Positions 2,283 to 36,319 of a stretch of DNA of 41,022 nucleotides are shown here, piece by piece. The position numbers and the translations under genes are program-made. Source of the DNA: Dongia deserti (GTDB lineage: Bacteria; Pseudomonadota; Alphaproteobacteria; Dongiales; Dongiaceae); the NCBI RefSeq assembly GCF_003574735.1, contig NZ_QORW01000031.1, forward strand, positions 1-41,022. Direction: 5' to 3'. Below the pieces are notes generated by a model. It saw nothing but the letters and a program-made list of their open reading frames with translations. It did no database searches and was not told the origin of the DNA. Position 1 is the stretch's first letter, and each line of letters opens with the position of its first letter.

Positions 2283-2285
2283 CGG

Positions 2286-20920: not shown

Positions 20921-22657
20921 ATGAGTCTACAGGCGACCCCCACCACTAGCCAGGGGCTGGCGACGCGACGGAGCGACTTCGACACGATTTGCGAAGCGCT
21001 GGACTACGCGGCGCGTGGCGAGACCGGCTTCAACTTCTTCACCGCCAAAGGCGAGCTGGCCCAGGTGCTGACCTACCGCGAATTGCGTGAGCGGGCGCGG
21101 GATTTCGCCCAGGGCCTCGTGCGGTTGGGCCTTGCCAAGGGCGATCGGGTGCTGCTGATCGCGGACACCGATCCCGAGTTCATGGTCGCCTTCTGTGGCT
21201 GCCAATATGCCGGGGTGCTGCCGGTGCCGGTGGCGCTGCCGATGACCTTGGGTGGCCGTGCCGCCTATATCGATCAGCTTCGGCAGCAAATGATCGGGTG
21301 CGGTGCTGCCGCCGCGATGGCCCCGGATGGATTTCTAACCTTCTTGACGGAAGCGGCGGAGGGCCTGGACCTGAAGCTGGTGGGTGGGCCGATGGACTTC
21401 GCCGCCTTGCCGCGCACCGGCGCCGATCTGCGTCCCTTCGGCAAGGACGATCAGAGCTATCTGCAGTTCTCTTCGGGCAGCACGCGCTTCCCGAAGGGCA
21501 TCGACATTCCGCAGCGTTCCATCATGGCAAACGCCAACGCCATCACGCTCGACGGCCTCGACATCAATCGTGGCGATCGCTGCACGTCGTGGCTGCCGCT
21601 GTATCACGACATGGGCTTGGTCGGCTTCATGCTGGTGCCGCTCACGACGCAGATGTCGATCGATTACATTGCGACCCGTGACTTTGCCCGCCGGTCGCTG
21701 ACCTGGCTGAAGCTTATCGCCGATTACGGTGGGACGCTCTCCTACAGCCCGAGCTTCGGTTACGAACTCTGCACGCGGCGCCTGCGCGAAGGCACGGACG
21801 TCAGTCTCGATCTCAAGCGCTGGCGCGGCGCCGGCATCGGCGGCGACATGGTGCAGCACCCGATCCTGCAGAAATTTGCCGATGCATTCGCACCCTATGG
21901 CTTCCGCCCCACGGCCTTCGTGCCGAGCTATGGCATGGCGGAGACCACGCTCGCCATGAGCTTCGCGCCATTGAACCAGCGCTATGTCGTCGACGAGATC
22001 GACCGCGAAGCACTGGCTCATCGGAACCTGGCGGCTCCTGGTCCGAGCGGCCCCAAGACCCGCGCCTTCGTCGCCTGCGGGCGCGCGCTGCAGGGCCACG
22101 AATTTCAGATCCGCGATGATGCCGGCCGCATGCTGCCGGAACGCAGCGTCGGACACATCTTCTTCCGCGGTCCCAGCGTGATGGGCGGCTATGACCGGCA
22201 GCCGGACCTGACGGCGGAAATTCTGAGCGCAGATGGCTGGCTGCAAACCGGCGATCTGGGGTATCTGCTGGATGGGCAGATCGTGATTACCGGCCGTGCC
22301 AAGGATCTCATCATCCTCAACGGCCGCAATATTTGGCCGCAGGACCTCGAATGGTCGGCGGAGGAACTGCCCGACCTGCGGCGCGGCGACGTCGCAGCGT
22401 TCTCTGTCGAGGAGAATGACAGCGAGACGGTGGTGATACTCGTGCACTGCCGGATCGGCGATCCCGACCAGCGCGAGAAGCTGCGGCGCGACGTCTACGC
22501 CTTGCTCCAGCGAGCGCACGGCGTCGAGGCGCGCGTGGTTCTTGTGCCGCCCAAGGCCCTGCCGCAGACCTCGTCCGGCAAACTCAGTCGCTCCAAGGCG
22601 AAGGCCAACTACCTGAGCGGCGCCTACGAGCAATTCGACGCTGCTGTGGGCGCCTAG
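20921..22657 (+). CDS. Fatty acyl-AMP ligase / acyl-ACP synthetase for sphingolipid synthesis
   Basis: This ANL-superfamily enzyme of 578 residues adenylates a fatty acid. The ATP-binding loop is SSGSTRFPKG (184-193), followed by SYGMAETT and TGDLGYLLDGQIVITGR, and the C-terminal catalytic Lys is in SSGKLSRSK. The family look is that of fatty acyl-AMP ligases, which load an acyl carrier protein rather than CoA. The ACP and serine palmitoyltransferase downstream support acyl-ACP synthetase activity feeding the ceramide pathway. ATG 20921 has AAGG about 5 nt upstream and starts the conserved region; the frame to 20828 has no better start. Its stop overlaps the GTG of the next gene by one base (TAGTG), so the genes are coupled. 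Confidence 0.87.
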   Translation: MSLQATPTTSQGLATRRSDFDTICEALDYAARGETGFNFFTAKGELAQVLTYRELRERARDFAQGLVRLGLAKGDRVLLIADTDPEFMVAFCGCQYAGVLPVPVALPMTLGGRAAYIDQLRQQMIGCGAAAAMAPDGFLTFLTEAAEGLDLKLVGGPMDFAALPRTGADLRPFGKDDQSYLQFSSGSTRFPKGIDIPQRSIMANANAITLDGLDINRGDRCTSWLPLYHDMGLVGFMLVPLTTQMSIDYIATRDFARRSLTWLKLIADYGGTLSYSPSFGYELCTRRLREGTDVSLDLKRWRGAGIGGDMVQHPILQKFADAFAPYGFRPTAFVPSYGMAETTLAMSFAPLNQRYVVDEIDREALAHRNLAAPGPSGPKTRAFVACGRALQGHEFQIRDDAGRMLPERSVGHIFFRGPSVMGGYDRQPDLTAEILSADGWLQTGDLGYLLDGQIVITGRAKDLIILNGRNIWPQDLEWSAEELPDLRRGDVAAFSVEENDSETVVILVHCRIGDPDQREKLRRDVYALLQRAHGVEARVVLVPPKALPQTSSGKLSRSKAKANYLSGAYEQFDAAVGA

Positions 22658-23604
22658 TGGGAAAACTCGCGGCCGTCACTGGCGCCACGGGCTTCATCGG
22701 CCGACAGGTTGTCACCGCCTTGTGGCGTCAGGGCTGGGGCGTGCGCGTCCTTGCGCGCCGGCATCCGGCTGAGCTGCTGTCTCCTCACCACGGCTTCCAG
22801 CTGGTGCTCGGTGACCTAGACGACTCGTCGGCCTTGGAGCGGCTGGTCGAGGGGGCCGATGCCATCATCCATCTGGGCGGCATCGTGAAGGCGCCGCGCC
22901 GCAGGGATTTCTACAGCGTCAACGAAGGTGGCACCCAGCGCCTGCTACTGGCGGCCGCCCGCGCGGCGCCCGCCGCCATGCTGGTTCACGTCTCGAGCAT
23001 CGCGGCACGCGAGCCTCGCCTCTCTCCTTATTGCGACAGCAAATACCGGGCGGAACAGGCCGTGCGGGGGCTGGCCGGCGACCGGATATGGACCATCCTG
23101 CGCCCGCCCGCGGTCTACGGGCCCGGGGATCGGGAAATCCGGCCGATATTCACGGCCGCCAAGCTTGGCATCGTCCCTTATCCGGCGTCACCCGGCGCCG
23201 CCCTGTCCATGATTCATGTCGCCGACCTCGCGGAAGCCATCGCAGCCTGCCTGACCCGCTCCGGGCCTCCACAGGCCACGTTCGAGATCGATGACGGCGT
23301 GCCAGGCGGCTATCGCTGGCCAGACATCCTGAGCGCCTTGGGGGAAGCTGTCGGACGCAAGCCGGCAGGCCTGCGCCTGCCCCGCGCCGGGCTTTTGGCC
23401 GTTGCCCAGGCCAACCGCTTGATGACGCGGATCGACGGACGGGCCCGCATTCTGCAGCCCCACAAGGTCGCCGAGATCTATTGGCCGGACTGGGTAGTCC
23501 ACGGAAATCGGCTGGAGCAGGTATCGGACTGGCGGCCGGCATTCGATATCTGGCGCGGATTCCGCGATGCAGCGAAATGGTATGCAGCTGCTAACATGGT
23601 TTAG
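22657..23604 (+). CDS. cerR: NAD-dependent epimerase/dehydratase family, ceramide reductase (CerR-like)
   Basis: This is an extended short-chain dehydrogenase of 315 residues. The Rossmann motif GATGFIG (9-15) binds NAD(P)H, and the catalytic set is Ser113/114 (HVSSIA) with Y125-x3-K129 (YCDSK). In Caulobacter a protein of this family, next to serine palmitoyltransferase, reduces the 3-keto group after N-acylation. The same neighbours here support that role. The start is GTG 22657, overlapping the ligase stop by one base, and the protein begins directly on the Rossmann strand. A gap of 166 bp precedes the ACP gene. Family assignment is firm; the ceramide role is inferred from context. Confidence 0.82.
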   Translation: MGKLAAVTGATGFIGRQVVTALWRQGWGVRVLARRHPAELLSPHHGFQLVLGDLDDSSALERLVEGADAIIHLGGIVKAPRRRDFYSVNEGGTQRLLLAAARAAPAAMLVHVSSIAAREPRLSPYCDSKYRAEQAVRGLAGDRIWTILRPPAVYGPGDREIRPIFTAAKLGIVPYPASPGAALSMIHVADLAEAIAACLTRSGPPQATFEIDDGVPGGYRWPDILSALGEAVGRKPAGLRLPRAGLLAVAQANRLMTRIDGRARILQPHKVAEIYWPDWVVHGNRLEQVSDWRPAFDIWRGFRDAAKWYAAANMV

Positions 23605-23640
23605 AAAATTAACCGGTTAGCCCTTTGATTCGATTGGGTT

Positions 23641-23658
23641 GTAACAATCGGTAACAAT
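23641..23658. repeat. Direct repeat GTAACAAT, 10-bp period, upstream of the ACP gene
   Basis: GTAACAAT is found at 23641-23648 and again at 23651-23658, one helical turn apart, in an unusually AT-rich gap (23605-23770). A 10-bp palindrome, TAACCGGTTA, lies at 23610-23619. Same-face half-sites are typical of a dimeric regulator or response regulator, so this may control the ACP-SPT unit. No regulator is identified. Confidence 0.45.
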
Positions 23659-23770
23659 TTGTCATTTAACCCTAACGCCCAAATGCAAGACATATGTGGC
23701 CCGGGGAATCGGCGGGTCTGTCATAGGCATGTCATCGCCGCAGTTAGCGACAGGAAAAGAGTTATAGATC

Positions 23771-24049
23771 GTGGGCACCGCAGCCATCCAACAGAGTTCA
23801 GCTCTGACCAAGGACGGAATTTTCGTCGAGATCGCCCGCCTGCTTGAGCGCTTTCGGGCCGGCGAGGCAACGATCACGTCGGAAACGGTGATCGCCGAGG
23901 ACCTGACGATGGATTCGCTGCAGGTCATGGATTTGATGATGGAGCTGGAAGACCGCTTCGACGTGTCCATCCCGCTCAATTTAGTACCGGAAATCGCGAC
24001 GGTCGGTCAGCTTGCCGACACGATCTACGCGAGCAAGACGGGGGCATAG
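23771..24049 (+). CDS. Acyl carrier protein dedicated to sphingolipid synthesis
   Basis: This 92-residue acidic helical protein carries the phosphopantetheine attachment motif MDSLQVMDL with Ser49 as the modified residue. It ends 8 bp before serine palmitoyltransferase. A specialised ACP next to this enzyme is seen in Caulobacter and Sphingomonas, where it delivers the long acyl chain. The start is GTG 23771 with a purine-rich AGGAAAAGAG somewhat upstream. It is about ten residues longer at the N-terminus than a housekeeping AcpP, which supports a special role. Confidence 0.9.
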   Translation: MGTAAIQQSSALTKDGIFVEIARLLERFRAGEATITSETVIAEDLTMDSLQVMDLMMELEDRFDVSIPLNLVPEIATVGQLADTIYASKTGA

Positions 24050-24057
24050 GGGGAGTT

Positions 24058-25281
24058 ATGGGTTTGCTTGATCGCTTTAAGACGATCCGTGAGGTGCACG
24101 GAGCCGTAAAGGCGTGCGGCGCCGATCCCTTCGGCGTGAAGATGGATCGCATCGTCTCCGCCACGGAAGCCGTCATCGAGGGCCGTCCGACCATCCTCTG
24201 CGGCTCGAACAACTATCTCGGCCTCACCTTCGATCCCGATTGCATCGCGGCTGCGCAGCGCGCGACGGAGGAGTTCGGCACCGGCACCACCGGCTCGCGC
24301 ATCGCCAATGGCTCCTACTTCTGCCACAAAGCGCTGGAAACCGATCTCGCCGACTTCTACGGCAAGAAGCATTGCATGGTCTTCACGACCGGCTACCAGG
24401 CGAATCTGGGCGCCATCTCCACGCTGGTCGGTCCCGGCGACTTCGTGATCATCGACGCCGACAGCCATGCCAGCATCTACGACGCGTGCAAGCTCGGCAG
24501 CGCGACTGTCATCCGGTTCCGCCACAACGACCCGGTCGACCTCGACAAGCGCCTGCAGCGCATCGCGCACGAGCCCGGCAACAAGCTGGTGGTGGTCGAA
24601 GGTATCTACTCGATGCTGGGCGATCACGCGCCGCTCAAGGAATTCGTCGAGGTCAAGAAGAAGCACGGCGCTTACATCCTGGTCGATGAAGCCCACTCCA
24701 TGGGCGTCATGGGCAAGACCGGCCGCGGCCTCCTGGAGCAGGAAGGCGTGGACGCGGACATTGATTTCGTGACCGGTACCTTCTCCAAGAGTATGGGCGC
24801 GATCGGCGGCTTCCTGGTCTCAGATCATCCGGACTTCGATATCCTGCGCGTCGCGTGCCGGCCCTACATGTTCACCGCTTCGATGCCGCCGTCACTGGTC
24901 GCGTCGGTGCGTGCCTCGCTCGCGAAGCTGCGCGCGCATCCCGAACTGATGGTGCGGCTGTGGCGCAACGTCGACACGCTCTACCATGGGCTGGAGGCCG
25001 CCGGCTTCAAGCTCGGCCGCCAGAAGGGCCCGGTGGTCGCGGTCCACATCAACGACCCTGCGCTCGCCGCGCGGGCGTGGCATGGCCTGCTGCAGAACGG
25101 CGTCTATGTGAACCTGGCGCTCCCGCCGGCGACGCCTAGCGGGACTGCCCTGCTCCGCTGCTCTGTCTGCGCCGCTCACTCGACGGAGCAGCTGCGGCGC
25201 GTGACCGACGTCATCACTAAGGTTGGCCTGGAGCTCGGCATCATCGCGGACCGGTCGGTCCGGATCGCAGCCGCCGAATAA
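24058..25281 (+). CDS. spt: Serine palmitoyltransferase (alpha-oxoamine synthase)
   Basis: This PLP enzyme of 407 residues condenses serine with a long-chain acyl thioester to give 3-ketosphinganine, the committing step of sphingolipid synthesis. Seen features are GTGTTGSR (about 79-86), the cofactor-stacking His in DSHASIYD (H137), DEAHSMG (D210, H213) and the Schiff-base Lys in TFSKSMGAIGG (K244). The fold alone would also fit KBL or BioF, but the dedicated ACP 8 bp upstream and the ceramide genes around it point to SPT. ATG 24058 has a strong GGGGGAG just upstream. A clear terminator follows at 25304-25337, where it converges on the headgroup operon. Confidence 0.9.
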   Translation: MGLLDRFKTIREVHGAVKACGADPFGVKMDRIVSATEAVIEGRPTILCGSNNYLGLTFDPDCIAAAQRATEEFGTGTTGSRIANGSYFCHKALETDLADFYGKKHCMVFTTGYQANLGAISTLVGPGDFVIIDADSHASIYDACKLGSATVIRFRHNDPVDLDKRLQRIAHEPGNKLVVVEGIYSMLGDHAPLKEFVEVKKKHGAYILVDEAHSMGVMGKTGRGLLEQEGVDADIDFVTGTFSKSMGAIGGFLVSDHPDFDILRVACRPYMFTASMPPSLVASVRASLAKLRAHPELMVRLWRNVDTLYHGLEAAGFKLGRQKGPVVAVHINDPALAARAWHGLLQNGVYVNLALPPATPSGTALLRCSVCAAHSTEQLRRVTDVITKVGLELGIIADRSVRIAAAE

Positions 25282-25303
25282 CAGGCATCTCTCCAGAATT
25301 CTG

Positions 25304-25354: not shown

Positions 25355-26266
25355 CTACCGAAATGCGCCGCGGCGGTAAAGCTTCCAGGCCAAGACAGGC
25401 GCCGAGAGAAGCGGATGGCGCCGCTGCCAGTCCGTTACCGGCAGCACCACGCCGGAGTGCCGCTTCACTTTCCACAGCACGTAGTCGAGCGCACCATCGA
25501 AGGTAAACGTCGCTTTGACCAAGCGCGCGAAGTTGAGCAGTTTGCTGATCCGCCGCCTCCGGCGCCAGGCCGCAGTGAACGCCGCTGCGTCGGCTTGGCC
25601 TTCTTCGCCGATGATGCCGCGCACCAAGGCATGGACGCGCCGATAGCGCTCCGCATCCGCGTTCACCAACTCGGTCGCGCGATCGCGGCCTTCGGATCGC
25701 ACTTCGGCGCGATAGGTCTCCTCGAATGCGCGCTGCCAGATCGCGTCGGCAGCCGCACTCCGATCGACCAGCGGCAGTACGCTAGCAAGCATCGTCAGCG
25801 TCGCTTCGGTGCAAGCGCCTGCAACGGCTTGCAGGACCTGCGGATTGCGCGACCATACCAGCCGGCTTTGCTGCGAGAATCGCGCCCACAACGACACATT
25901 GTCCGTCGTGCGCGACGTGCCTTCCTGAAACTGCGCGAGCGAGATCACCGCATATTTGCACCGGAGCGTCGCGCCTTCGTGCTGCGCCTCGAGATAGAAC
26001 ACGTTGGGCGGCAGGATCCGGTTGGCCAGCGCCGTCATAGCGCCGGCGTAGGCCGTCTTGTAGTCATCGACCAGCAGATAGAAGTCGAGCAGTGAATCCG
26101 CGAGCAGGCTTTCCGGACGCCGCAAGCAGGAACCATAGAACAGCACCGCCAACGCTGCGTTGGGATGGCGCGCGCGAACTGCATCCGCCATGGTTCGCAC
26201 GGCGGGCGCGACCGGCTGTGCCAGTTCTTGCGCGATAAGGGCAGTCAGTTCCGCGCGCGCATCCAT
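25355..26266 (-). CDS. Tam41/Mmp37-like nucleotidyltransferase (putative lipid cytidylyltransferase)
   Basis: This 303-residue protein has a pol-beta-type nucleotidyltransferase core. FYGSCLRR gives the Gly-Ser motif (G45, S46), and LLDFYLLVDDY supplies acidic metal ligands (D61 and D67/D68). The following ANRILPPNVFYLE resembles Tam41, the mitochondrial CDP-diacylglycerol synthase. It is last in a minus-strand operon with a ceramide-kinase-like and a CDP-alcohol phosphotransferase gene, a gene set also found beside serine palmitoyltransferase in Caulobacter. I infer that it activates ceramide-1-phosphate or a related phospholipid with CTP. The ATG is 9 bp after the kinase stop. The fold is fairly sure; the substrate is inference. 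Confidence 0.75.
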   Translation of the reverse strand: MDARAELTALIAQELAQPVAPAVRTMADAVRARHPNAALAVLFYGSCLRRPESLLADSLLDFYLLVDDYKTAYAGAMTALANRILPPNVFYLEAQHEGATLRCKYAVISLAQFQEGTSRTTDNVSLWARFSQQSRLVWSRNPQVLQAVAGACTEATLTMLASVLPLVDRSAAADAIWQRAFEETYRAEVRSEGRDRATELVNADAERYRRVHALVRGIIGEEGQADAAAFTAAWRRRRRISKLLNFARLVKATFTFDGALDYVLWKVKRHSGVVLPVTDWQRRHPLLSAPVLAWKLYRRGAFR

Positions 26267-26275: not shown

Positions 26276-27235
26276 TTAATACCGGTGAAACTCGATCACG
26301 GGCCCGGCGCTCAGCTCGACATGGCCGTGCGGGCCCGGATCGAACACCTCGCCATCCACCACGATCGGACTGGTGAGGTGCAGCGAGATGCGATCGGCCC
26401 GCGTGCTGGCATAGCCGGCATGATGCATCCACGGGCGCGGGCGCCCGCGCACCACGGAAAAGGCAGCACGGCCGAAGCGCGGTGCCGGAGAGGCGATGGT
26501 GGTGAGCTTGATCGCGCCGTGATCGTGGCCCCAGAACGGCATCACGCCCGGCAGCAGGCGCTCGAGCGTCGTCGCGAGTATGAAGAGATAAGGCGCCTCT
26601 TGCGGCGGCGAGCCATTGAGGCCGATTGCCACGCGCTCGCCGCGCAGGCCGGACCGCTCGCCCTCGCCGTGCAGCAGCAGACGCATCACCGACCACACGA
26701 TGCCGGCCTTGGTGGCCAGACTTTGCCGGAAGCCGACGCGGTGCATATCCCGGCGGGTCAGCCGCGTGCCCTGATAGAACCCCACCGCCCCAGCGAGGAA
26801 GCCATACTCGGTGCGACCCCTGCCGCTGCACTTCACGGCGATGGCCGCGCGCCGCATTGTTTCCCCCGGGTCGCCGCTGCGCGTGCGGCTCAGGATGCGC
26901 CGCAACGCATCGACCGGTGAATTGGGGACACCGACATCGTGCGCGATGACATTGGTCATGCCGCCGCCGACCAGCGTAACGCGCGGCAAGTGCGAAAAAG
27001 GCGAGCGTTCAAACAGCTCGCCGAGCACGGCTTGCACCGTGCCGTCGCCGCCATTGATCACCAGATGCTCGACACCCTTCCTCTCGAGTGCCGCCAAGGC
27101 AGCGGGCATCGCATCGATGCACGTAAAGCTCCTGTGCGTGACGTCGGGGAACTCCGCCATCATGCGCTCGATCGCCGGCAATGCGCTCTGATTGCGGCGG
27201 CTGTGCGCATTGCTGAGAACGCCCACGCGCATCAT
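26276..27235 (-). CDS. cpgB: LCB5/diacylglycerol-kinase family lipid kinase, ceramide kinase CpgB-like
   Basis: This 319-residue protein is a member of the diacylglycerol/sphingosine kinase family. The nucleotide-binding motif NGGDGTVQ (N61-Q68) is intact, and VGGGMTNVIAHDVG (about 90-103) matches the second conserved loop. The C-terminal beta-sandwich is present, including the DGEVF motif. In Caulobacter the homologue in this gene context phosphorylates ceramide and is called CpgB. The start is ATG 27235, overlapping the stop of the upstream CDP-alcohol phosphotransferase (ATGA), so the much longer open frame from 27616 is a shadow. Family call is firm, ceramide specificity is inferred from the operon. 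Confidence 0.82.
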   Translation of the reverse strand: MMRVGVLSNAHSRRNQSALPAIERMMAEFPDVTHRSFTCIDAMPAALAALERKGVEHLVINGGDGTVQAVLGELFERSPFSHLPRVTLVGGGMTNVIAHDVGVPNSPVDALRRILSRTRSGDPGETMRRAAIAVKCSGRGRTEYGFLAGAVGFYQGTRLTRRDMHRVGFRQSLATKAGIVWSVMRLLLHGEGERSGLRGERVAIGLNGSPPQEAPYLFILATTLERLLPGVMPFWGHDHGAIKLTTIASPAPRFGRAAFSVVRGRPRPWMHHAGYASTRADRISLHLTSPIVVDGEVFDPGPHGHVELSAGPVIEFHRY

Positions 27236-28386
27236 GTAGGGGACGACCCTGCGTGCGCCTGCAGCCAGGAGACCGGCGCGCGTCCGCGCAACTGCGCGGC
27301 GAAAGCCTGGCCGATCCGGATGCAGTGGAAGATGAAGCTCGCGATCATCCACCAGGCGACCGCCACCAGTCCCGTGTCCGGCGCTTGCAGCAGTGCGGCA
27401 ATGGTCAGGATCAGCAGGTTTGGATTGCGCCGTGCAGTGATCAGGCGGAACCACGAATCCACCGGCCGCCAGGTATGGATCTCGATGCCGAAGCGCCAGA
27501 TGAACAGGCCTTCCTGCAGGCGGCCGGCGATATAACCGAAGATCACCACCCACAACGCCCACTCCAGGCTCGGCGCGAGGTACGGCCCAAGACCGAGGAA
27601 CCACGCATAATACCAAAAGGGCGGATGCAGCAGGTCGATGCCGTGATCGAAGACGTCACCAACCTTGGTGGACGTCAGCGTGCAGCGCGCGAGCTTGCCA
27701 TCGACCGTATCGAGAAAGCACATCGCCCATGCCGCCAAGAGCCCAGTGATGAACCAGGCCTGCCAGAACAGATAGGTAGCCAGCAGCACGAATCCGAAGC
27801 TGACCCAGGTCACGACATTCGGCGTGATGCCATGGCGCGCGCACCAGCGCGTCGCCGCCAACGCCGGCACCGGCCAGACGTATTTCGTGACCACATCGGT
27901 CACGCCTTTGTAGGAGCTGCCGAACAAGGCACGCTCGACCGCGGCCGCGTCTGCCCCGTCCAGCGGCAGCAGCACCGGCTCGGCCCGCTTACGCAGCGCC
28001 TTCTGATAGGCGCTGGCGAGGGTCGCGGCGTCCTGCATAATGAAGTTCGCGGCGGCGGCTTCATCCAACTCGGCGACGAGCGCGAACGCGGCACGAATAT
28101 TCTCCGCGCCCTCGCCATGCGCCGCGACGATCTCGCCGTTCTCCGCCTTGAGCGCCACGCCGGGCGCATTGATCATCGCCTTGATCAGTGCCTCGTCGAA
28201 GGCGTAGTCGGCGCGGATCGCCACCGCTGACCCCTGGCCCGACTCAAGTTCGCCCGCCGGCAGCTCCGCCTCGACCCCGGCGCGGTGAAAGGCACGGCGC
28301 AGGCGTTCACGGGGCGACAGGCTGAATAGAGTGAGGTCGCTGTCGCCGATCAGGCAAAAGGCGATGCTGGCGCGCTCGGCCGACAC
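27232..28386 (-). CDS. CDP-alcohol phosphotransferase, paralogue C, first gene of the headgroup operon
   Basis: This 384-residue membrane enzyme carries the complete CDP-alcohol phosphotransferase signature (D226, D229, G230, A233, R234, G243, D247, D251) in an IDLLHPPFWYYAW context shared with paralogues A and B. The N-terminal ~150 residues are a soluble domain, more diverged than in A and B but in the same place, ending in the shared SSYKGVTD/SNYKGSTD junction. The start is GTG 28386 with GGAG 9 nt upstream. The kinase gene overlaps its stop by 4 bp. It is expected to join a phospho-alcohol to a CDP-activated partner in making the ceramide headgroup. The exact donor and acceptor are not known. 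Confidence 0.85.
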   Translation of the reverse strand: MSAERASIAFCLIGDSDLTLFSLSPRERLRRAFHRAGVEAELPAGELESGQGSAVAIRADYAFDEALIKAMINAPGVALKAENGEIVAAHGEGAENIRAAFALVAELDEAAAANFIMQDAATLASAYQKALRKRAEPVLLPLDGADAAAVERALFGSSYKGVTDVVTKYVWPVPALAATRWCARHGITPNVVTWVSFGFVLLATYLFWQAWFITGLLAAWAMCFLDTVDGKLARCTLTSTKVGDVFDHGIDLLHPPFWYYAWFLGLGPYLAPSLEWALWVVIFGYIAGRLQEGLFIWRFGIEIHTWRPVDSWFRLITARRNPNLLILTIAALLQAPDTGLVAVAWWMIASFIFHCIRIGQAFAAQLRGRAPVSWLQAHAGSSPT

Positions 28387-28544
28387 AAATAGGGACTCCG
28401 GTGGGATCGATAAGCGGATGAGGAATATCGGGCGCCGGAGCCGGCGTCCATAAGGAAATTCAAGTACTTCCGGGCAGACGCCAAGGCTTGACGCAAGCTC
28501 GAAAATACGGCCAAACAGGCGCCCAAGATAGGGATTCCACGACC

Positions 28545-29459
28545 ATGTTTGCCCTTGCCCATCTATCGGACCCGCATTTGGCTGGCTGGTCGGTTGACCG
28601 GCCCTCGGCTTTGGCCAACAAGCGGGTCACCGGCTGGCTGTCTTGGCGCCTGAACCGCCATCGGATCCATCTGCCGCAGGTGCTCGACCTCATGCTGGCG
28701 GACATGGCGGAGCAGCCGATCGATCACATCGCCGTGACCGGCGATCTAGTGAATATTTCCTTGCCGCAGGAATTCGAAGGTGCCGCCCGTTGGCTGCGTA
28801 ATCTCGGCACTGCCGACATGGTGACGGTGATTCCCGGCAATCATGACGCGTATGTGCGCGTGCGCGGCGATGAAGGTATCGCACGGTGGCGCGACTACAT
28901 GACCGACATGGCATGGGAGCGTGCCGATGGCGCGCCACCAGCCGATCCCTTTCCATTCGTGCGCAAGATCGGGCCGCTGGCACTGATCGGGCTGTCGAGT
29001 GCTGTGCCGACGCCGCCCTTCTTCGCCTCCGGTACGCTGGGCTCCTCACAACTGAGCGTGCTGCGCGACATCCTGGCGCAACTCGGCGCTGAGGGCGTGT
29101 TCCGGGTCGTGCTGATCCATCATCCGCCGCTTTATGGGAAGGGGCATCGCCGCAAGGCCCTGACGGACGCGAAGGAGTTCAGCGAGGTGGTGCGCGCAGC
29201 CGGTGCGGAATTGGTCCTGCACGGCCACATGCACATGGCGAGCCTGGGCCACATCGATAAGATCCCCGTTATCGGAGTTCCATCCGCGTCCGCCCTGCGC
29301 TGGCACCATAAGGATGCCGCGGCATACAACATCTATCGAATCGGTCAGGCGAACGGGGCCTGGCGATTAGGTGTTGAAGTTCGCGGATTAACGAATAGCG
29401 AAGATCGCTTCGTACCCAGTGGCAGCTACGAGTTAACCATTCCCGCATTGCGGCATTGA
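28545..29459 (+). CDS. Calcineurin-like metallophosphoesterase
   Basis: This 304-residue enzyme has all metallophosphoesterase motifs: DxH (D9, H11 in SDPHL), GDxxN (G66-N70 in TGDLVN), GNHD (98-101), the HHPP loop and GHMH near the C-terminus. It should be a two-metal hydrolase acting on phosphoesters, with no signal peptide. The frame opens at 28488; ATG 28545 starts exactly at the first core strand and has GGG 11 nt upstream. It is divergent from the headgroup operon and leads the plus-strand group with HIT, LptF and LptG. In this setting it could remove phosphate from a lipid or nucleotide intermediate; that is inference. Confidence 0.85.
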   Translation: MFALAHLSDPHLAGWSVDRPSALANKRVTGWLSWRLNRHRIHLPQVLDLMLADMAEQPIDHIAVTGDLVNISLPQEFEGAARWLRNLGTADMVTVIPGNHDAYVRVRGDEGIARWRDYMTDMAWERADGAPPADPFPFVRKIGPLALIGLSSAVPTPPFFASGTLGSSQLSVLRDILAQLGAEGVFRVVLIHHPPLYGKGHRRKALTDAKEFSEVVRAAGAELVLHGHMHMASLGHIDKIPVIGVPSASALRWHHKDAAAYNIYRIGQANGAWRLGVEVRGLTNSEDRFVPSGSYELTIPALRH

Positions 29460-29557: not shown

Positions 29558-30001
29558 ATGGCAACCCCGAATGCGACGGCCGTCAAGTTCGGCCATCCGG
29601 CAAGCTTGATTCGCGAGTACCGGCACTGGCTGGTTCTGGCTCGTCCCCAACAGGTGACCCTGGGGTCGCTCGTGCTGGTGTGCAGCAATGCGGCGCGCGC
29701 CTTCTCGCAGATCTCGGTCCGGGCGTTCGAGGAGCTGGCGCAGGTGACGGCCGATCTGGATGCCGCGCTTACCCGCTGCTTCCAACCGGACAAGTTGAAC
29801 TATCTGATGCTGATGATGGTCGATCCTGACGTCCATTTCCACGTTCTGCCGCGCTATGGAAGCGCGCGCGAGTTTGCCGGACGGAGCCATAGCGATCGCT
29901 TCTGGCCGAAGCCGGTCGACCTGACGCAGCCGGTGGACGCGGACGCTGCCCTCAGCACCGCCGTGCGGGACGCGTTGCGCGCCGCCTGGCGCAAGGATTG
30001 A
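29558..30001 (+). CDS. HIT-family protein with altered histidine triad
   Basis: This 147-residue protein is HIT-like, with the motif DVHFHVLPRY at 91-100. Aligned to H-x-H-x-H, the first His is Asp91, while His93 (the nucleophile position) and His95 remain. The N-terminal WLVLARPQQVTLGSLVL matches the HIT strand with conserved Pro and Gly residues. It is likely a nucleotidyl hydrolase or transferase, for example of CDP- or AMP-linked compounds. ATG 29558 has GAGGG close upstream. LptF begins 13 bp after its stop, so it belongs to the same operon. A link to clearing CDP-activated or acyl-AMP by-products of the pathway is possible but not shown. Confidence 0.75.
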   Translation: MATPNATAVKFGHPASLIREYRHWLVLARPQQVTLGSLVLVCSNAARAFSQISVRAFEELAQVTADLDAALTRCFQPDKLNYLMLMMVDPDVHFHVLPRYGSAREFAGRSHSDRFWPKPVDLTQPVDADAALSTAVRDALRAAWRKD

Positions 30002-30014: not shown

Positions 30015-31217
30015 ATGTTCAAGCTGTCGCTCATCGATCGGTACATGCTGAAGCGCGTATGCTGGCCCCTGGCAGGCGCGATCGTGATCGGCATGGCGGC
30101 ATTGCTGCTCGAGCGCCTGATCCGGTTGCTCGACCTGTTCGCCAATCGCGGCGGCCCGCTGACATTGATCCTCAAGATGCTGGGCAATCTTGTCCCGCAT
30201 TACCTCGCCATCGCAATTCCGGCGGCGTTTTTCGTCGGCATCCTCTATGCGACGCTCCGCCTCTCCAACGATAGCGAGCTCGACGTCATGCGCGCGAGCG
30301 GTCTTTCGCTGCGCCGGCTTGCCGCGCCGATGCTGGTGATGGCGGTCGTTCTCACCGTTGCGTCCGCGATCATCCTGGGGTTCCTGCAGCCCTATACACG
30401 CTACGCTTATCGTGCGCTGGTCTATCTGGTGACCGAGACATCGTGGAACTCAGCGATCGAACGCGGCGCCTTCTTCAGCGGCTTCGGCGGTAAGACGATC
30501 CTGATCGGCGACATTGCCGACGGCGGGCGCACGTTGCGGCGGATCTTCATCCAGGAGACGGACGAGAAGGGCAACAATATCGCGCTCTCAGCCCAGACCG
30601 GCGAGCTCAGGAACGATCCTCGGACGTTCTCCCTGACCTTGGTCCTGCGAGACGGAGTACGTGTCGATTCCAAGCCGGACGGCACCGGCGGCAAGGCATC
30701 CACTTTCAAAGAGTCCAGCCTGCCTCTGGAGGTGGTCGCGCCCGAGCCATTCCGCGAAAATCGAAAGGAATCGGAGTTGTCGTTGTTGCAGCTCGTTCGG
30801 GCTCATGTGGAGAAGTGGCCAGGCGTGGACCGTGAGGACGTCCTGGCCGAAATCAATTACCGCGTCGTTCGAACGTTGACCGTTTTGTTTCTGCCGTTGC
30901 TCGCCATCCCGATGGGCCTGACATCCCGACGCCAGCCGACGAGTATCCGGATCGTGGTCGGTATCGCAATCCTGATCATCTATTACCAGCTGCTGCAGTT
31001 CGGGAAGGACATGGCGGAGAATGCCCGCATGTCCAGCTTCCTCGCGCTGTGGGTCCCGTTCTTCGTGTTCGCCCTGGGCAGCACATATATGTTCCATGTC
31101 GCGAACTCGCGCCTCAATCAGGATCCGTTTGCGGTGCTGTTCGGCAGCATCGAGGATTGCTCGCGCTGGATCAAAGGGCGGTGGGCTTCGCTGTTCCGCC
31201 GCAAGCGTACGGCATGA
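30015..31217 (+). CDS. lptF: LptF-like permease
   Basis: This is a YjgP/YjgQ-family inner-membrane protein of 400 residues. Three N-terminal membrane helices (about 15-35, 55-78, 100-122) are followed by a periplasmic beta-jellyroll (about 140-270) and three C-terminal helices (about 285-380). LptF and LptG form the membrane part of the LptB2FG transporter that lifts LPS from the inner membrane. It overlaps lptG by 4 bp. The place is unusual: it lies among sphingolipid genes rather than by lptD/surA. It could be the sole LPS copy, or a paralogue for ceramide lipids. The ATP-binding partner LptB is not in the window. Confidence 0.87.
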   Translation: MFKLSLIDRYMLKRVCWPLAGAIVIGMAALLLERLIRLLDLFANRGGPLTLILKMLGNLVPHYLAIAIPAAFFVGILYATLRLSNDSELDVMRASGLSLRRLAAPMLVMAVVLTVASAIILGFLQPYTRYAYRALVYLVTETSWNSAIERGAFFSGFGGKTILIGDIADGGRTLRRIFIQETDEKGNNIALSAQTGELRNDPRTFSLTLVLRDGVRVDSKPDGTGGKASTFKESSLPLEVVAPEPFRENRKESELSLLQLVRAHVEKWPGVDREDVLAEINYRVVRTLTVLFLPLLAIPMGLTSRRQPTSIRIVVGIAILIIYYQLLQFGKDMAENARMSSFLALWVPFFVFALGSTYMFHVANSRLNQDPFAVLFGSIEDCSRWIKGRWASLFRRKRTA

Positions 31218-32305
31218 TGACCTTCACACGCTACGCGCTTAAAACGTTCCTGTGGAACTTTGGTGTCCTGTGGGTGAGCTTCACCTCGATGCTGCAGATC
31301 GTCGATCTGCTCAACAACAGCGACGAGGTCCTGGACCGTCACCCGCGTGATTTCGGCGCCGTGGTGGAATATGCCGTCTGGCGCCTGCCTGAGCTCGCAG
31401 TCTTCCTCATCCCCTTCAGCGTGCTGATGGCAGCGCTACTGTCCTTGGCGAAGTTCGAGCGCAGCAACGAGACGCTTGCCCTGAAATCAGCTGGTGCACC
31501 CTATTACCAGATCCTCCTGGCCTTCCTGCCCGCGGTCGGTCTGGTCGCGGTCCTGCATTTCGCACTGACGGATCAACTGGTCCCCCGCGCCATCAATCAC
31601 CTGATGGAACGCGACCTCTACGTCGACAAGAAGAGCAAGAACGACGAGGGAGAAGACCAGCGCGTCTGGGTGCAGGATGGCGACACGATCGTCGAGGTCG
31701 GCCAGGTCGAGAATCAGGGGCTTGAGCTCTTCAACATGCGCCTCTATCGGCGCGACGATCTCGGCAACATCACGGATCAGAGGTTCGTGCGCCACGCGAC
31801 CTTTGACGTTACGACGCGCAAGTGGACCTTTGAGAAGATCGAGGACACGAAAGTCCTGCCCGGCCGCCCGACCGAGATCACGCGGATCGAGACAGATACC
31901 TGGGACACAAAGCTGGGCCCGCAAGAGTTCTCGGAGCTGATCGAGCGGCCGCAAGCCATGACCACCGCGCGTCTGTGGAGCTTCGCCACATCCGCGCAGA
32001 TCGGCGTGCGCCCGACCTACTTCTATGAAACGTGGCTGCAGAAGCGCGTCGCCTTGCCGGTCAGCTCCATCCTGATGATCCTGTTGGCGGCACCGGTGGC
32101 GTTGAGCTTCGGCCGGCGTGACAAGGGCGTTGCTTCGGGCATGGCGATCGGGTTCGGCCTCGGCTTCCTCTATTTCATCACCGAAGGGCTCGTGCAGTCC
32201 CTGGGTGAGAGCGGGGCCGTGCCGCCCTTCTTCGCGGCGTGGCTGCCGGCCCTCTTGTTCGCCAGTATCGGTGGACTCTGGTTGATCCGGCTCGAAGGTT
32301 TCTGA
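31214..32305 (+). CDS. lptG: LptG-like permease
   Basis: This 363-residue partner of LptF has the same six-helix plus jellyroll plan. MMTFTRYALKTFLWNF and LLNNSDEVL at the N-terminus are typical of LptG. The start is the first ATG (31214), which overlaps the lptF stop as ATGATGA; the in-frame ATG at 31217 is equally possible. The longer open frame back to 31049 lies inside lptF. CDP-alcohol phosphotransferase B starts 6 bp after its stop, so transport and headgroup synthesis would be on one mRNA. Confidence 0.87.
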   Translation: MMTFTRYALKTFLWNFGVLWVSFTSMLQIVDLLNNSDEVLDRHPRDFGAVVEYAVWRLPELAVFLIPFSVLMAALLSLAKFERSNETLALKSAGAPYYQILLAFLPAVGLVAVLHFALTDQLVPRAINHLMERDLYVDKKSKNDEGEDQRVWVQDGDTIVEVGQVENQGLELFNMRLYRRDDLGNITDQRFVRHATFDVTTRKWTFEKIEDTKVLPGRPTEITRIETDTWDTKLGPQEFSELIERPQAMTTARLWSFATSAQIGVRPTYFYETWLQKRVALPVSSILMILLAAPVALSFGRRDKGVASGMAIGFGLGFLYFITEGLVQSLGESGAVPPFFAAWLPALLFASIGGLWLIRLEGF

Positions 32306-32311
32306 CCCCTG

Positions 32312-33514
32312 ATGTTCATTGTTTGGATCGATGCCGCGCGCGGCGCCGGTGAGCGCGTATTTGGATTGACTCTTCTGGAGCGGCATCTGAAGGCGCTGAA
32401 ACATCGCAAGCTGCAGCCTGGCGAGGTGATCATCGACCTGGGCGAGAGCGCGGCCGATGATCCGCCGGAAGCCAAGCGCAAATGGCCCTTCCCGCTCCGC
32501 GTCGTGCGTCATGGCGGCACGATCGCGCAGCGCATTGCGCGGGTTGCCGGTGGCGCCCGCATCCTGGCGCTGGATGCGCAGACTTTAGTGGATGCGCGGC
32601 TTTATGATTTTCTCGTCCAGCAGCGGCACGACCTGGTGGCCGAGGATGGAGATGCCGCGATTGCCTGGATCGGCGATCCCATTTTACTCGACGCGAATGC
32701 CGCAGATCTGCGCAGCGCGGTGAGCGGCTCCCTGCCGCGACTGACCCAGGCCGAGTTCCCCGGCTTCATCCGCAATCTGCGCCGCACGCTGCCGTTCTAC
32801 CTGTTCCGCATTGGCAGCGTCGAAGATCGGGCGAAGGTCGAGCGCTTCCTGTTCTGGTCGAACTACAAGGGCTCGACCGACTTCTTTACCAAGTACGTCT
32901 ACCCGCCTCTGGTCTGGGTGATGGTGCGCCCCTTGGCACATGCTCACGTGCACCCGAACTGGGTGACCATCATTTCCATCATCCTGACCTTCGCCGCCGT
33001 TCCTTTGTTCGGCGGCGGCTATTTCCTCGCCGGCTTCCTCTGCGCCTATGGGATGAGCGTGCTGGATTCCGTCGACGGCAAGCTGGCGCGCCTGACCTTC
33101 ACGGATTCGAAGATCGGAAACGTGCTGGATCACGGGCTCGATCTCGTGCACCCGCCTTTCTGGTACTGCGCCTGGGCCTACGGATTGTCACAGGGCGACG
33201 TTTGGTCGCCGGTCTTCCTGGCCTCGCTGGTGATGCTGCTGCTTTATATGGTCGACCGGCTGATCCTGAAAATCTATCCGACGCGCTTCGGACGCGGGCT
33301 CCATACCCATGGGCCGATGGATGGCTTCGTGCGCACCTTCATCTCCCGTCGCAACATCAACTTACCTTTATTTACAGTTGGTTACATCGCGGGCTTCGGA
33401 ATCGAGACGATCTATCTGATCGTGGCGTGGCAGGCTGCCACCTGCCTCTACCACGGGGCCCGGACCGCGTGGATCCTGGCTTATGACCGGCCGGCGCCGG
33501 CGGGGTCGGCATAG
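32312..33514 (+). CDS. CDP-alcohol phosphotransferase, paralogue B, with N-terminal extra domain
   Basis: This 400-residue sister of paralogue A has the full signature (D252, D255, G256, A259, R260, G269, D273, D277) and the same junction SNYKGSTDFFTKYVYPP. Its first ~160 residues match the A domain in plan (FIVWIDAARGAGERVFGLT, EVIIDLG, ILALDAQTL, GFIRNLRRTLPFYLFRI). This is a nucleotidyltransferase-like outline without the usual GxGxR/PK donor loop. The core shares a 41-nt run of identical DNA with paralogue A. ATG 32312 is 6 bp downstream of lptG. Together with the cytidylyltransferases at 35549 and 36354 it likely completes a headgroup; the alcohol is unknown. Confidence 0.86.
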   Translation: MFIVWIDAARGAGERVFGLTLLERHLKALKHRKLQPGEVIIDLGESAADDPPEAKRKWPFPLRVVRHGGTIAQRIARVAGGARILALDAQTLVDARLYDFLVQQRHDLVAEDGDAAIAWIGDPILLDANAADLRSAVSGSLPRLTQAEFPGFIRNLRRTLPFYLFRIGSVEDRAKVERFLFWSNYKGSTDFFTKYVYPPLVWVMVRPLAHAHVHPNWVTIISIILTFAAVPLFGGGYFLAGFLCAYGMSVLDSVDGKLARLTFTDSKIGNVLDHGLDLVHPPFWYCAWAYGLSQGDVWSPVFLASLVMLLLYMVDRLILKIYPTRFGRGLHTHGPMDGFVRTFISRRNINLPLFTVGYIAGFGIETIYLIVAWQAATCLYHGARTAWILAYDRPAPAGSA

Positions 33515-33524
33515 GCCGCATAAC

Positions 33525-33553: not shown

Positions 33554-33603
33554 GCGGTCCACATTCAACGCAGCCATTTCGCGCCGAAAGCTAAAGAGTT
33601 CGC

Positions 33604-34395
33604 ATGGTCCGCTGGGGCTTCTGGAAGAACCGTACGCACAACCTCGCCCGCATGTCGATGGGCGATCTGATCGTTGCGTTCTTCAGCTACTACGCTGTGC
33701 TGGTCTATCTCGGCTTCGCGGGTGCCAGCCTGTGGCTGACCGCGCTATGGTTCGATGGCTGGTTGGCGCTGATCGCCGCCGGCATCTTTGCCGCTCTGGT
33801 CTATCCGCTCTCCTGGTATGTGCTGCACCGCTGGGTGCTGCATGGGCAATATCTCTATCGTTCGCCGCTGACGGCCAAGGTCTGGAAGCGGATCCACTTC
33901 GATCATCACCAGGATCCGCACAATCTGGTTGTGCTGTTCGGCGCGCTCTATACGACGATCCCGACCATCGCGCTGGTGACCATTCCGGTTGGATACTTGA
34001 TCGGGGGCAAGTCGGCTGCCGCCCTCGCGTTCGCCATGGGCATCCTGTCGACGCTGTTCTACGAGTTCTGTCACTGCGTGCAGCATCTCAACACGACGCC
34101 GAAGAGCGCCTTCATGCGCCAGATCAAGAAGTACCATCTGGCTCATCATTTCCATAATGAACAGGGCAATTTCGGCATCACCAATTTCCTGTGGGATCGC
34201 ATCTTCCGCACCTATTACGCCGAGCCGAAGCTGCGCCCAAAGAGCACCACGGTTTTCAACATCGGCTACACCGACGAGATGGCGCAGCGTTATCCCTGGG
34301 TCGCGGCGCTCAGCAACGGCACGCGCGGCGATGCCAATCCGCGGCGGTTCCGCTCCGAACAGGGCGAGGCGCCGAGCCCGCGCGCCGGCCACTAA
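33604..34395 (+). CDS. Sterol desaturase / fatty acid hydroxylase superfamily protein
   Basis: This 263-residue membrane di-iron enzyme has the eight-histidine pattern: HRWVLH (H75-H80), HFDHH (H98-H102), HCVQH (H157-H161) and HLAHHFH (H178-H184), with about four membrane helices. The order and the GNFGITNFLWDRIF tail are typical of the hydroxylase group that includes FA2H/Scs7, which makes 2-hydroxy ceramides, and sphinganine C4-hydroxylase. Its position 11 bp before the ceramide-synthase-like gene suggests hydroxylation of the ceramide acyl chain or long-chain base. The start ATG 33604 has AAAGAG upstream. The reaction site cannot be read from sequence. Confidence 0.85.
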   Translation: MVRWGFWKNRTHNLARMSMGDLIVAFFSYYAVLVYLGFAGASLWLTALWFDGWLALIAAGIFAALVYPLSWYVLHRWVLHGQYLYRSPLTAKVWKRIHFDHHQDPHNLVVLFGALYTTIPTIALVTIPVGYLIGGKSAAALAFAMGILSTLFYEFCHCVQHLNTTPKSAFMRQIKKYHLAHHFHNEQGNFGITNFLWDRIFRTYYAEPKLRPKSTTVFNIGYTDEMAQRYPWVAALSNGTRGDANPRRFRSEQGEAPSPRAGH

Positions 34396-34406
34396 CGCCG
34401 TATCCG

Positions 34407-35552
34407 ATGTCTCCCGGTCCAGTCGTCGTCCAGCCGGTCGCGAGCGGTCGCGATCTCGATGAGTTCGTCGCGCTGCCGAAGCGGCTCTATCTCGGACAGA
34501 AGGGCTACATCGCCCCGCTCGATCTTGAGCGCAAGGAAACCCTGAACCGGAAGAAGAACCCGTATTTCCAGCACGCCGATGCTGAGCTGTTCATCGCCCG
34601 CCGCGCCGGCGAGGTCGTGGGGCGCATCTCCGCGCAGTTCTGCCGGCTGCACCAGGAGAAATATAGAAACGATGTCGGCCATTTCGGCTGGATCGATACG
34701 ATCGACGACATCAACGTGATGCGCGCGCTCTCAGGCGCCGCTGAAACCTGGCTGAAGGCGCACGGCGCCAGGCGCATCCTTGGTCCCTTCAGCTTCTCTT
34801 CCAACGAGGAATCCGGCCTGCTGGTGGACGGATTCGATGCCACGCCGATGTTGATGATGCCCTATCACCTGCCCCATCAAGGCAGGTTGATCGAGGCTTG
34901 CGGCTTCGCCAAAGCCAGGGACCTGCTCGCCTACACCGTCGATAAGGCGACCTATCACGCGGTCGGCAGTAACCGCATGCTGGACAAGATCCAGAGTGAC
35001 GGCCGCATCCGCCTGCGCCCGCTCGACATGCAGAACTACAAGCCGGACCTCTCCGCGCTGCTGCAGGTATTCAACGATGCCTGGTCCGGCAACTGGGAAA
35101 TGGTGCCGTTCGCGCAATCGGAGATCGAGGCGGCCGCAGCCAGCATGAAGCCGCTGATCGACCCCGACTTGGTGGTGATCGCGGAGATCGACAACGAAGT
35201 CGCCGGCATGCTGGTATGCCTGCCGAACCTGTTGGAAGCGATCCGTGACCTCGACGGCAGCCTGCTGCCGTTCGGCTTTGCGAAGCTGCTGTGGCGCCTG
35301 AAGCGCAAGACACTGAGGACGGCGCGCGCTCCATTGATGGGTATCCGCAAGAAGTATCACGGCACCCTCACCGGCGCGGCGCTGCTGCCGCTGCTGTTCC
35401 ATCGGCTGAAGGAGCCATTCTTCGCGCGAGGCCTCGAGCAGGTGGAGCTATCTTGGATCCTGGAAGACAATCTGCCGATGCGCCGTGTGCTCGAAGGCAT
35501 CGGCGCGAAGGTCTACAAGACGTATCGCGTCTACGAAAAGGCGATCACGTGA
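34407..35552 (+). CDS. GNAT-like acyltransferase, bacterial ceramide synthase (bCerS)-like
   Basis: This 381-residue protein is of the type often annotated as an N-acetyltransferase or dATP pyrophosphohydrolase. Halves with GNAT character can be seen: AELFIARRAGEVVGRISAQFC near 51-72, and LVVIAEIDNEVAGMLVCLPN near 254-273, with a C-terminal VELSWILEDNLPMRRVLEGIGAKVYKTYRVYEK. A member of this family is the bacterial ceramide synthase in Caulobacter, which N-acylates the SPT product and is unrelated to eukaryotic ceramide synthases. The surrounding SPT, reductase and hydroxylase support that role. The frame opens at 34191, but ATG 34407, 11 bp after the hydroxylase stop, begins the conserved part. 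Its stop overlaps the next GTG. Confidence 0.78.
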   Translation: MSPGPVVVQPVASGRDLDEFVALPKRLYLGQKGYIAPLDLERKETLNRKKNPYFQHADAELFIARRAGEVVGRISAQFCRLHQEKYRNDVGHFGWIDTIDDINVMRALSGAAETWLKAHGARRILGPFSFSSNEESGLLVDGFDATPMLMMPYHLPHQGRLIEACGFAKARDLLAYTVDKATYHAVGSNRMLDKIQSDGRIRLRPLDMQNYKPDLSALLQVFNDAWSGNWEMVPFAQSEIEAAAASMKPLIDPDLVVIAEIDNEVAGMLVCLPNLLEAIRDLDGSLLPFGFAKLLWRLKRKTLRTARAPLMGIRKKYHGTLTGAALLPLLFHRLKEPFFARGLEQVELSWILEDNLPMRRVLEGIGAKVYKTYRVYEKAIT

Positions 35553-36319
35553 ACGCGCTGATCCTGGCCGGCAGCCGCGGCCCGGACGACCCGATGGCGA
35601 AGGCGGCCGGCGTCTCGCACAAGGCTCTGCTGCCGGTGGCCGGTGTCCCCATGCTGCTGCGCGTGGTGACGGCGGTGCGTGCCACACCCGGCATCGAGCG
35701 GATCCATGTCTGCATCGAGGATGCACGCGTGATCGCTCAGGTGCCGGAGCTCGAGGCCCTGCACCGCGCCGGCACGTTGGACGTGGTGCCTGCGGCTGAG
35801 AGCCCAGCCGCCAGCGTCGCTGCCGCCCTGCGCCGCATCGACCTGTCGCAGCCGTTGCTGGTCACGACCGGTGATCATCCGCTGCTGACGCCGGCGATCC
35901 TGCAGCGTTTCCTGGAGGCTGCGCCCGCCGCATGCGACCTCGCCGTTGCGCTGGCGCCTTCGGACGTCGTTTCGGCCGCCTATCCCGGCGCGATCCGCAC
36001 CTTCTATCGCCTTGGCAAGCGGCGCTTCAGCGGGTGCAACCTGTTCCTGGTGCGCTCGCCCAATGCCGCGCGCGTTGCCGAGTTCTGGCGCCGTATGGAG
36101 GCTCATCGCAAGCGCCCGCTGCGCCTGATCTGGGAAATCGGGCCGCTGGCATTGATCAAGGTCCTGCTCGGCCTGATGGATGCCGGGCAGGCTTTCGCTT
36201 ACCTGTCGCGGAAGGCCGGTGCGACGATCCGCCATGTCGAGCTGCCGATTGCGGAGGCCGCTGTCGATGTCGACAAGCCGGCGGATCTGGAACTGGTGGA
36301 GCGGATATTGCAGCGCTAG
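35549..36319 (+). CDS. MobA-like NTP transferase domain protein (putative alcohol-phosphate cytidylyltransferase)
   Basis: This 256-residue GT-A-fold nucleotidyltransferase begins NALILAGSRGPDD. The usual GxGxR donor loop is stretched, and the Lys in SHKALLPVAG is the probable phosphate-binding residue. LLVTTGDHPLL (about 108-118) holds the metal-binding Asp. The start is GTG 35549, overlapping the upstream stop as GTGA, so it is translated together with the ceramide-synthase-like gene. A CTP-dependent enzyme making CDP-glycerate is known for ceramide phosphoglycerate synthesis in Caulobacter (CpgD), and this gene is a candidate for such a function. That assignment is inference from context. 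Confidence 0.72.
   Translation: MNALILAGSRGPDDPMAKAAGVSHKALLPVAGVPMLLRVVTAVRATPGIERIHVCIEDARVIAQVPELEALHRAGTLDVVPAAESPAASVAAALRRIDLSQPLLVTTGDHPLLTPAILQRFLEAAPAACDLAVALAPSDVVSAAYPGAIRTFYRLGKRRFSGCNLFLVRSPNAARVAEFWRRMEAHRKRPLRLIWEIGPLALIKVLLGLMDAGQAFAYLSRKAGATIRHVELPIAEAAVDVDKPADLELVERILQR

Follow-up and report, generated by a model that had tools for sequence, protein, structure and literature searches.

A block of sixteen genes at 20921-37082 of the window (the whole stretch of DNA analyzed here, namely the 41,022-nucleotide contig NZ_QORW01000031.1 of the alphaproteobacterium Dongia deserti) quite probably directs both the synthesis and the export of an anionic ceramide lipid, likely hydroxylated, which, judging from gene content, would replace lipopolysaccharide (LPS) in the outer membrane and travel through a dedicated LptF2/LptG2 pair seated on the Lpt bridge. 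The host genome (G000; 6.13 Mb in 51 contigs, completeness 100%, contamination 0.69%) gave two matches to the LptF/LptG family PF03739 in a whole-genome search, both of them inside the sphingolipid block. The same genome gave no match to LpxC, LpxK, or WaaA (LpxA, LpxB, and LpxD were not searched), and the controls for these searches were positive in Escherichia coli and C. vibrioides each time. Because the three families are missing from a genome rated complete, lipid A synthesis appears to have been lost in the host, and the sphingolipid therefore probably takes both the place and the transport machine of LPS. The case for LptF2/LptG2 as its carrier is drawn from copy number, location, phylogeny, and a scar between pepA and lptD.

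The two permease genes of the block, lptF (LptF2; 30015..31217, + strand) and lptG (LptG2; 31214..32305, + strand), encode ATP-binding cassette (ABC) permeases of the Lpt exporter; they match PF03739 with 231.1 and 228.4 bits and score 235.9 bits on TIGR04407 (cut-off 230) and 230.8 bits on TIGR04408 (cut-off 240), respectively. The host genome contains a lptC-lptA-lptB-rpoN cluster at C48 and a lptD-surA-ksgA cluster at C2, with one LptD. In these families and loci the host resembles the Lpt exporter of LPS (LptB2FGC-A-DE), whereas the LptF/LptG pair of the window falls in a distinct clade associated with sphingolipid genes, and its proposed cargo is not LPS.

In the family to which the host belongs (17 genomes, host included), LpxC was not found in 13 genomes, LpxK in 14, and WaaA in 14, and all 17 contain LptD and a true serine palmitoyltransferase (SPT; at least 64% identity). 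The fourteenth genome lacking LpxK and WaaA, G004 (94% complete, 160 contigs), does contain LpxC and represents either an assembly gap or a decaying lipid A pathway; G001, one of the 13 genomes lacking LpxC, is only 68% complete. Across a set of 61 genomes, LpxC was matched in 41, LpxK in 42, and WaaA in 41. All six genomes with both SPT and LpxC have four or five LptF/LptG matches, and 14 of the 15 with SPT but no LpxC have a single pair, none being found in the incomplete G001. Exactly two matches were counted in 29 of the 35 genomes with LpxC but no SPT (the others have 0, 1, 1, 1, 3, and 4), and genomes with neither have two matches (two of five) or none (three of five). The two of these that possess the pair carry LpxK and WaaA, so LpxC may merely be missing from their assemblies. 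Restricted to those SPT-containing genomes in which LptFG occurs at all, Fisher's test yields p = 2.6e-5, a value that serves as description only because related genomes are not independent. In this tally, G014 was counted as having two matches (a third fell under the cut-off), and the split genes in G041 and G043 were counted as listed.

All four LpxC-containing members of the family carry two LptFG pairs, one in the sphingolipid block and one adjoining lptD in the order pepA, lptF, lptG, lptD, surA, ksgA. By contrast, the LPS-less members keep the sphingolipid-block pair only, and in eight of the nine that were fetched the order is pepA, lptD, surA, ksgA, with 187-914 bp between the aligned ends, which is too short to hold lptF and lptG. 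The ninth (G011) has its lptD in a different, rearranged setting (L195). Beyond the family, G028 and G054, both LPS-less, likewise have pepA adjoining lptD.

Phylogenetic trees of LptF and LptG (57 sequences each, LG+G4 without mixture) separate the two kinds of pair. The 25 alphaproteobacterial rows linked to sphingolipid genes stand together on one starred side (support 98/99 for LptF and 98/97 for LptG), with the remaining 20 labelled rows from Alphaproteobacteria on another (100/100 and 99/99); the label of the latter, D, means a position next to lptD for G004, G005, G006, G010, and G042, and otherwise a pair that is not at an SPT locus or comes from an SPT-less genome. Eight rows were unlabelled, and G018, G045, and G048 contributed no pair, since a partner or a part was missing. 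The LptF/LptG pair of the window groups with those of ten other LPS-less family members (100/100). In a tree of pepA, lptD, surA, and ksgA from 14 genomes (leaving out the rearranged G011, together with G001, G003, G015, and G016, whose lptD loci were not fetched), the LPS-less G007 sits beside the LpxC-containing G005 (100/99), and a single clade of LPS-less members is rejected (p-AU 0.0002). The tree thus calls for two or more losses within the family, unless lpx genes were regained.

The genes of the block were identified from Pfam and NCBIfam families and catalytic motifs, supplemented by a Protein Data Bank (PDB) sequence search for SPT and by predicted structures for two proteins. A first-pass annotation of the sequence had described a nearly complete ceramide pathway at 20921-36319, and all the protein types that it named were recovered there as family matches, motifs, or predicted folds. 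The block is confirmed as real and is fuller than that description, which missed the metallophosphoesterase, the HIT-like protein, LptF, LptG, the MobA/CofC-like nucleotidyltransferase, and a CpgD-like nucleotidyltransferase lying just past 36319. Chance open reading frames (ORFs) were rejected as an explanation, since the same gene order occurs in the loci of relatives and, among four retrieved loci of the Caulobacteraceae type, in two (L183 and L184). These four loci come from the family of a Phenylobacterium metagenome-assembled genome (MAG): L183 and L184 have the order of the window minus cdpB and the hydroxylase, L184 ending before the last gene, and L182 and L185 hold parts of the cluster only. 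The genome of L182 (G109) has two SPT copies; at one locus a hydroxylase directly adjoins aasR, and the stretch holds no head-group genes.

All five ceramide genes, aasR, cerR, acpR, spt, and cerS, are present in the block, which opens with four genes on the + strand. The first, aasR (20921..22657), encodes a fatty acyl-AMP ligase/acyl-acyl carrier protein synthetase of the CC_1165 type (PF00501; NF006624 816.9 bits, cut-off 600), and cerR (22657..23604) encodes a protein like NAD-dependent epimerases/reductases (PF01370, 82.4 bits) that is assigned as a ceramide reductase of the CC_1164 type from its position and 40-42% identity to its counterparts in L183 and L184. Next to these are acpR (23771..24049; GTG start), an acyl carrier protein with a DSL site (PF00550, 36.8 bits), and spt (24058..25281). 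The first-pass annotation had named a placement of the SPT-like protein among KBL/BioF as the finding that would overturn it; the comparison was run, and the protein is a true SPT, since NF047599 matches at 657.6 bits (cut-off 500), the NCBIfam bioF and KBL models score below their own cut-offs, and the top PDB structure is the SPT 2x8u (E 2.8e-146), over the best KBL, 1fc4 (E 2.1e-64). The KBL/BioF identity was therefore rejected. The closest named SPT is that of the MAG Rhodospirillum sp. PB1.008 (95% identity), followed by that of the Dongia mobilis isolate (79%). Toward the other end of the block, also on the + strand, fah (33604..34395) encodes a di-iron fatty acid/sphingoid hydroxylase (PF04116, 75 bits; HFDHH, HCVQH, and HLAHH), and cerS (34407..35552) encodes a putative ceramide synthase. 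The latter matched no Pfam or NCBIfam family, and the call comes from a predicted model (pLDDT 87.4) that resembles tandem GNAT structures (E 3.0e-14), with 46-47% identity to the proteins at the same place in L183 and L184.

The head-group genes begin with three on the - strand. The product of the first (25355..26266), a Tam41-like nucleotidyltransferase of the CC_1161/CpgC type and the proposed CDP-ceramide synthase, has no Pfam family above its cut-off; the five best PDB matches of its AlphaFold model (pLDDT 90.8) are all Tam41 (best E 3.4e-7, TM 0.36-0.50), the motif YG..D.Y is invariant in an alignment of 20 sequences, and identity to the protein at the same place in L183 and L184 is 35-38%. 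It is followed by cerK (26276..27235), a CpgB-type kinase of the LCB5/DAGK family with a GGDG motif (PF00781, 44 bits) and ceramide as its predicted substrate, and cdpA (27232..28386), a CDP-alcohol phosphotransferase of the CC_1159/CpgA type (PF01066, 33.4 bits). A second such enzyme, cdpB (32312..33514, + strand; PF01066 35.4 bits), is absent from L183 and L184; both possess the complete motif D-x2-DG-x2-AR-x8-G-x3-D-x3-D. From the metallophosphoesterase to the MobA/CofC-like gene, all genes are on the + strand. The calcineurin-like metallophosphoesterase of the CC_1158 type (28488..29459; PF00149 40.6 bits), found at the same place in L183 and L184, starts with TTG, with a possible ATG at 28545, and the next gene (29558..30001), in the position of CC_1157, is weakly assigned as HIT-like from a DVHFHV motif and a PF01230 score of 16.2 bits that lies under the cut-off of 21.5. 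The MobA/CofC-like nucleotidyltransferase of the CC_1153 type (35549..36319) matches PF12804 at 60.8 bits on a longer ORF, and its NCBIfam CTP/GTP transferase matches are all under cut-off. The block ends on the - strand with a cytidylyltransferase of the CpgD/CC_1152 type (36354..37082; PF00483 53.9 bits), which has GxGxR...K and GD motifs, the comparison of its residues with CpgD being by motif only.

The single locus of ceramide genes of Caulobacter families, as claimed in the first-pass annotation, was borne out by families and order alike, both in L183 and L184 and in the ceramide-diphosphoglycerate (CPG2) cluster CC_1168-CC_1152 of Caulobacter crescentus, the order of which was taken from PMC11324152. 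In Caulobacter, CC_1165-CC_1152 comprise aasR, cerR, acpR, spt, CpgC, the kinase CpgB, CpgA, a phosphoesterase, LptF2, LptG2, cerS, a CofC-like gene, and the phosphoglycerate cytidylyltransferase CpgD (PMC11324152, PMC12275187, PMC10331486, PMC11087976), and the window agrees with it in families and in their order from aasR through the CpgD-type gene, LptF2 and LptG2 included. The steps shown there are acyl-ACP supply, SPT, CerS, CerR, the CpgB kinase, and the CpgD cytidylyltransferase (PMC11324152, PMC12275187, PMC10331486, PMC11087976), and the enzyme for one condensation in ceramide phosphoglycerate (CPG) synthesis is stated as missing (PMC11324152). The window differs in having an extra CDP-alcohol transferase and a di-iron hydroxylase between lptG and cerS, whereas the Caulobacter hydroxylase CC_0202 lies elsewhere in its genome and belongs to the DesA family (PMC11324152). 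Caulobacter also has a second LptC and keeps the canonical LptFG and the LPS genes, all of which the Dongia host lacks. As in Sphingomonas and Rhodothalassium salexigens, both of which are without LPS, sphingolipid synthesis in the Dongia host would be combined with a diderm envelope that has no LPS (PMC11324152, PMC11762602, PMC10964400). However, the genes of Sphingomonadales are reported to be scattered, whereas the window holds synthesis, head-group, and LptFG genes in one block; the ceramides of R. salexigens are unphosphorylated, whereas the block has head-group genes; and the relatives of Dongia that retain LPS display the step before its loss.

The first-pass annotation had also proposed anionic, possibly hydroxylated ceramide lipids from one locus. 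Sequence, predicted fold, and gene order are consistent with this proposal, which was incomplete in that LptF/LptG, the CpgD-type gene, and the lack of lipid A genes across the genome had been missed, and these change the probable purpose of the locus. A feasible pathway is that AasR loads a fatty acid onto AcpR and SPT condenses the acyl chain with serine, after which CerS attaches a further acyl chain, reduction by CerR gives ceramide, and the hydroxylase introduces a hydroxyl group. Phosphorylation by CerK would then give ceramide 1-phosphate, from which the Tam41-like enzyme, by its fold and by analogy with CDP-diacylglycerol synthase, may form CDP-ceramide. One CDP-alcohol transferase could couple CDP-ceramide to glycerate or phosphoglycerate, and the phosphoesterase would trim the product. 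PgpA-like phosphatases act after phosphatidylglycerophosphate synthase, and the phosphoesterase may work analogously. The CpgD-like enzyme would supply CDP-glycerate, which the remaining CDP-alcohol transferase may use to add a second phosphoglycerate. Finally, LptF2/LptG2 with the shared LptB would extract the lipid from the inner membrane and pass it to LptC-LptA-LptD.

PMC11324152 and PMC11087976 both describe the transporter that takes bacterial sphingolipids to the outer membrane as unknown; PMC11324152 puts LptF2/LptG2 forward for this role, as a proposal only. No other paper in the literature found links LptF2/LptG2 to sphingolipids, and no title or abstract there treats the lipids of Dongia or Reyranella; subscription literature was mostly not covered, so this is not proof that such work is unpublished.

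Genomes beyond the 61 were drawn from 41 of 80 SPT loci, short contigs being left out. Eight of the 41 (G061-G067 and G089) repeat genomes of the 61-genome set, as recognised by identical match coordinates, which leaves 33 further named SPT genomes of unrated completeness. Seven have LpxC, six of them with four LptF/LptG matches. The 26 in which LpxC was not found include Vineibacter terrae, five Halieaceae MAGs, and one Paracoccaceae MAG, each with two LptF/LptG matches. In the five gammaproteobacterial Halieaceae MAGs (L074, L077, L079, L081, and L082; G094, G096, G098, G100, and G101), the pair lies near SPT where the locus reveals it.

Several observations weigh against a sphingolipid-exporting LptF2/LptG2 that displaced LPS. 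Neither LpxC nor LptF/LptG was found in 19 of the 26 genomes, those of the Reyranella/Enhydrobacter type (G068-G084, G086, and G087), and a LPS-less sphingolipid maker can therefore do without the pair; a single pair was counted in Halomonas ventosae (L071), although this genome has both LpxC and SPT. A dedicated LptFG in each sphingolipid maker was accordingly rejected as a general rule. The Reyranella/Enhydrobacter-type loci (L012-L069 except L059, L063, L065, and L068) contain a short cluster, aasR-cerR-acpR-spt-phosphoesterase-cerS, and none of the 54 (32 of which are at least 17 kb) revealed a gene for the kinase, the Tam41-like protein, a CDP-alcohol transferase, or the CpgD-type enzyme, so these clusters may make a different lipid. 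In the host itself, LptG2 falls just under its NCBIfam cut-off, and a search for a second LptC (LptC2, cf. CC_1168) found only the one at C48; the second LptC is a variable feature, which N. eutropha, A. vinelandii, and P. luteola are likewise reported to lack (PMC11324152). Paralogue-specific residues are nearly absent, with two in LptF and none in LptG, and were dropped as a sign of altered cargo. In the trees, long branches unite the pair of the Halieaceae loci, which lies near SPT, with Halomonas and not with the sphingolipid-linked alphaproteobacterial clade, and a common origin of the Halieaceae and alphaproteobacterial pairs was left as unsupported. In addition, the double loss presumes that lpx genes were not regained.

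It is quite unlikely that the block is an ordinary Caulobacter-type sphingolipid cluster in a cell that still makes LPS with undetected or strongly diverged enzymes and exports it through the LptF/LptG of the block. LptF and LptG are named for LPS, LptF2 scores above its NCBIfam cut-off, and only three lipid A families were searched; but these are three separate families that are not found in 13 of the 17 family genomes, most of them 97-100% complete, and each was matched in at least 40 of the 61 genomes. Moreover, the canonical pair beside lptD is missing in just the LPS-less genomes, and the pair that they keep belongs to the sphingolipid-linked clade. Missing lpx genes and canonical lptFG are very improbably due to gaps in assembly or binning, even though many family members are fragmented MAGs, including the incomplete G001 and the anomalous G004: the host is rated complete, the eight lptD loci with pepA directly beside lptD are contiguous, and the isolate of Dongia mobilis (L011, whose contig coordinates coincide with those of G011), rearranged as its lptD locus is, likewise has one LptF/LptG pair and no LpxC found.

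Another account accepts the loss of LPS but has LptF2/LptG2 carry some other outer-membrane lipid or glycan, the position in the block being inherited synteny without functional meaning. The Reyranella-type genomes, with SPT and no LptF/LptG, fit this account, as do two ABC exporters a few kb upstream that would make other export systems available. We consider it unlikely, however, because the copy number tracks SPT (a second pair in six of six genomes with SPT and LpxC, and in few without SPT), the LptFG pair stays in the block across families, and the mutant of LptF2 (CC_1156) shows a cofitness of 0.60 with that of the head-group gene CC_1159 (PMC11324152).

The two exporters (14411-16303, + strand, and 16355-18142, - strand) have fused membrane and ATPase domains, and one of them could be a flippase needed by the pathway. 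At 10565-11971 (+ strand), upstream of the block by 9 kb, lies the gene of a third CDP-alcohol transferase (PF01066; 468 amino acids), followed by that of a cupin protein at 11975-12457 (+ strand). Farther away, at 186-7580 (- strand), a penicillin-binding protein with a BiPBP_C domain adjoins a bacterial alpha-2-macroglobulin (1764 amino acids). Beyond the block lie a tRNA-Asn gene (37288-37362, + strand) and a match to the Rfam family sRNA-Xcc1 (38432-38513, - strand; 57.1 bits, gathering threshold 53).

Taken as a whole, a swap of cargo seems a reasonably likely history: an old LptFG duplicate would have become a dedicated exporter of anionic sphingolipid on the shared LptC-A-D bridge, after which lipid A synthesis and the canonical LptFG could be deleted, leaving an outer leaflet of sphingolipid, at least twice in the family and, with other solutions, in Vineibacter, in Reyranella-type genomes (no LptFG), and in Halieaceae. 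In the same scheme, the Tam41-like CDP-ceramide synthase and the two CDP-alcohol transferases would supply the condensing enzyme reported as missing for CPG in Caulobacter. Sister genomes with one pair, the sphingolipid-linked LptFG, or with both pairs constitute a natural experiment that points to the carrier, and isolates exist in the relevant lineages (Dongia mobilis, Vineibacter terrae, Reyranella, and Enhydrobacter), so that the hypothesis is testable in culture. If confirmed, it would account for the replacement of LPS by another lipid in a Gram-negative cell that nonetheless keeps the LPS machine.

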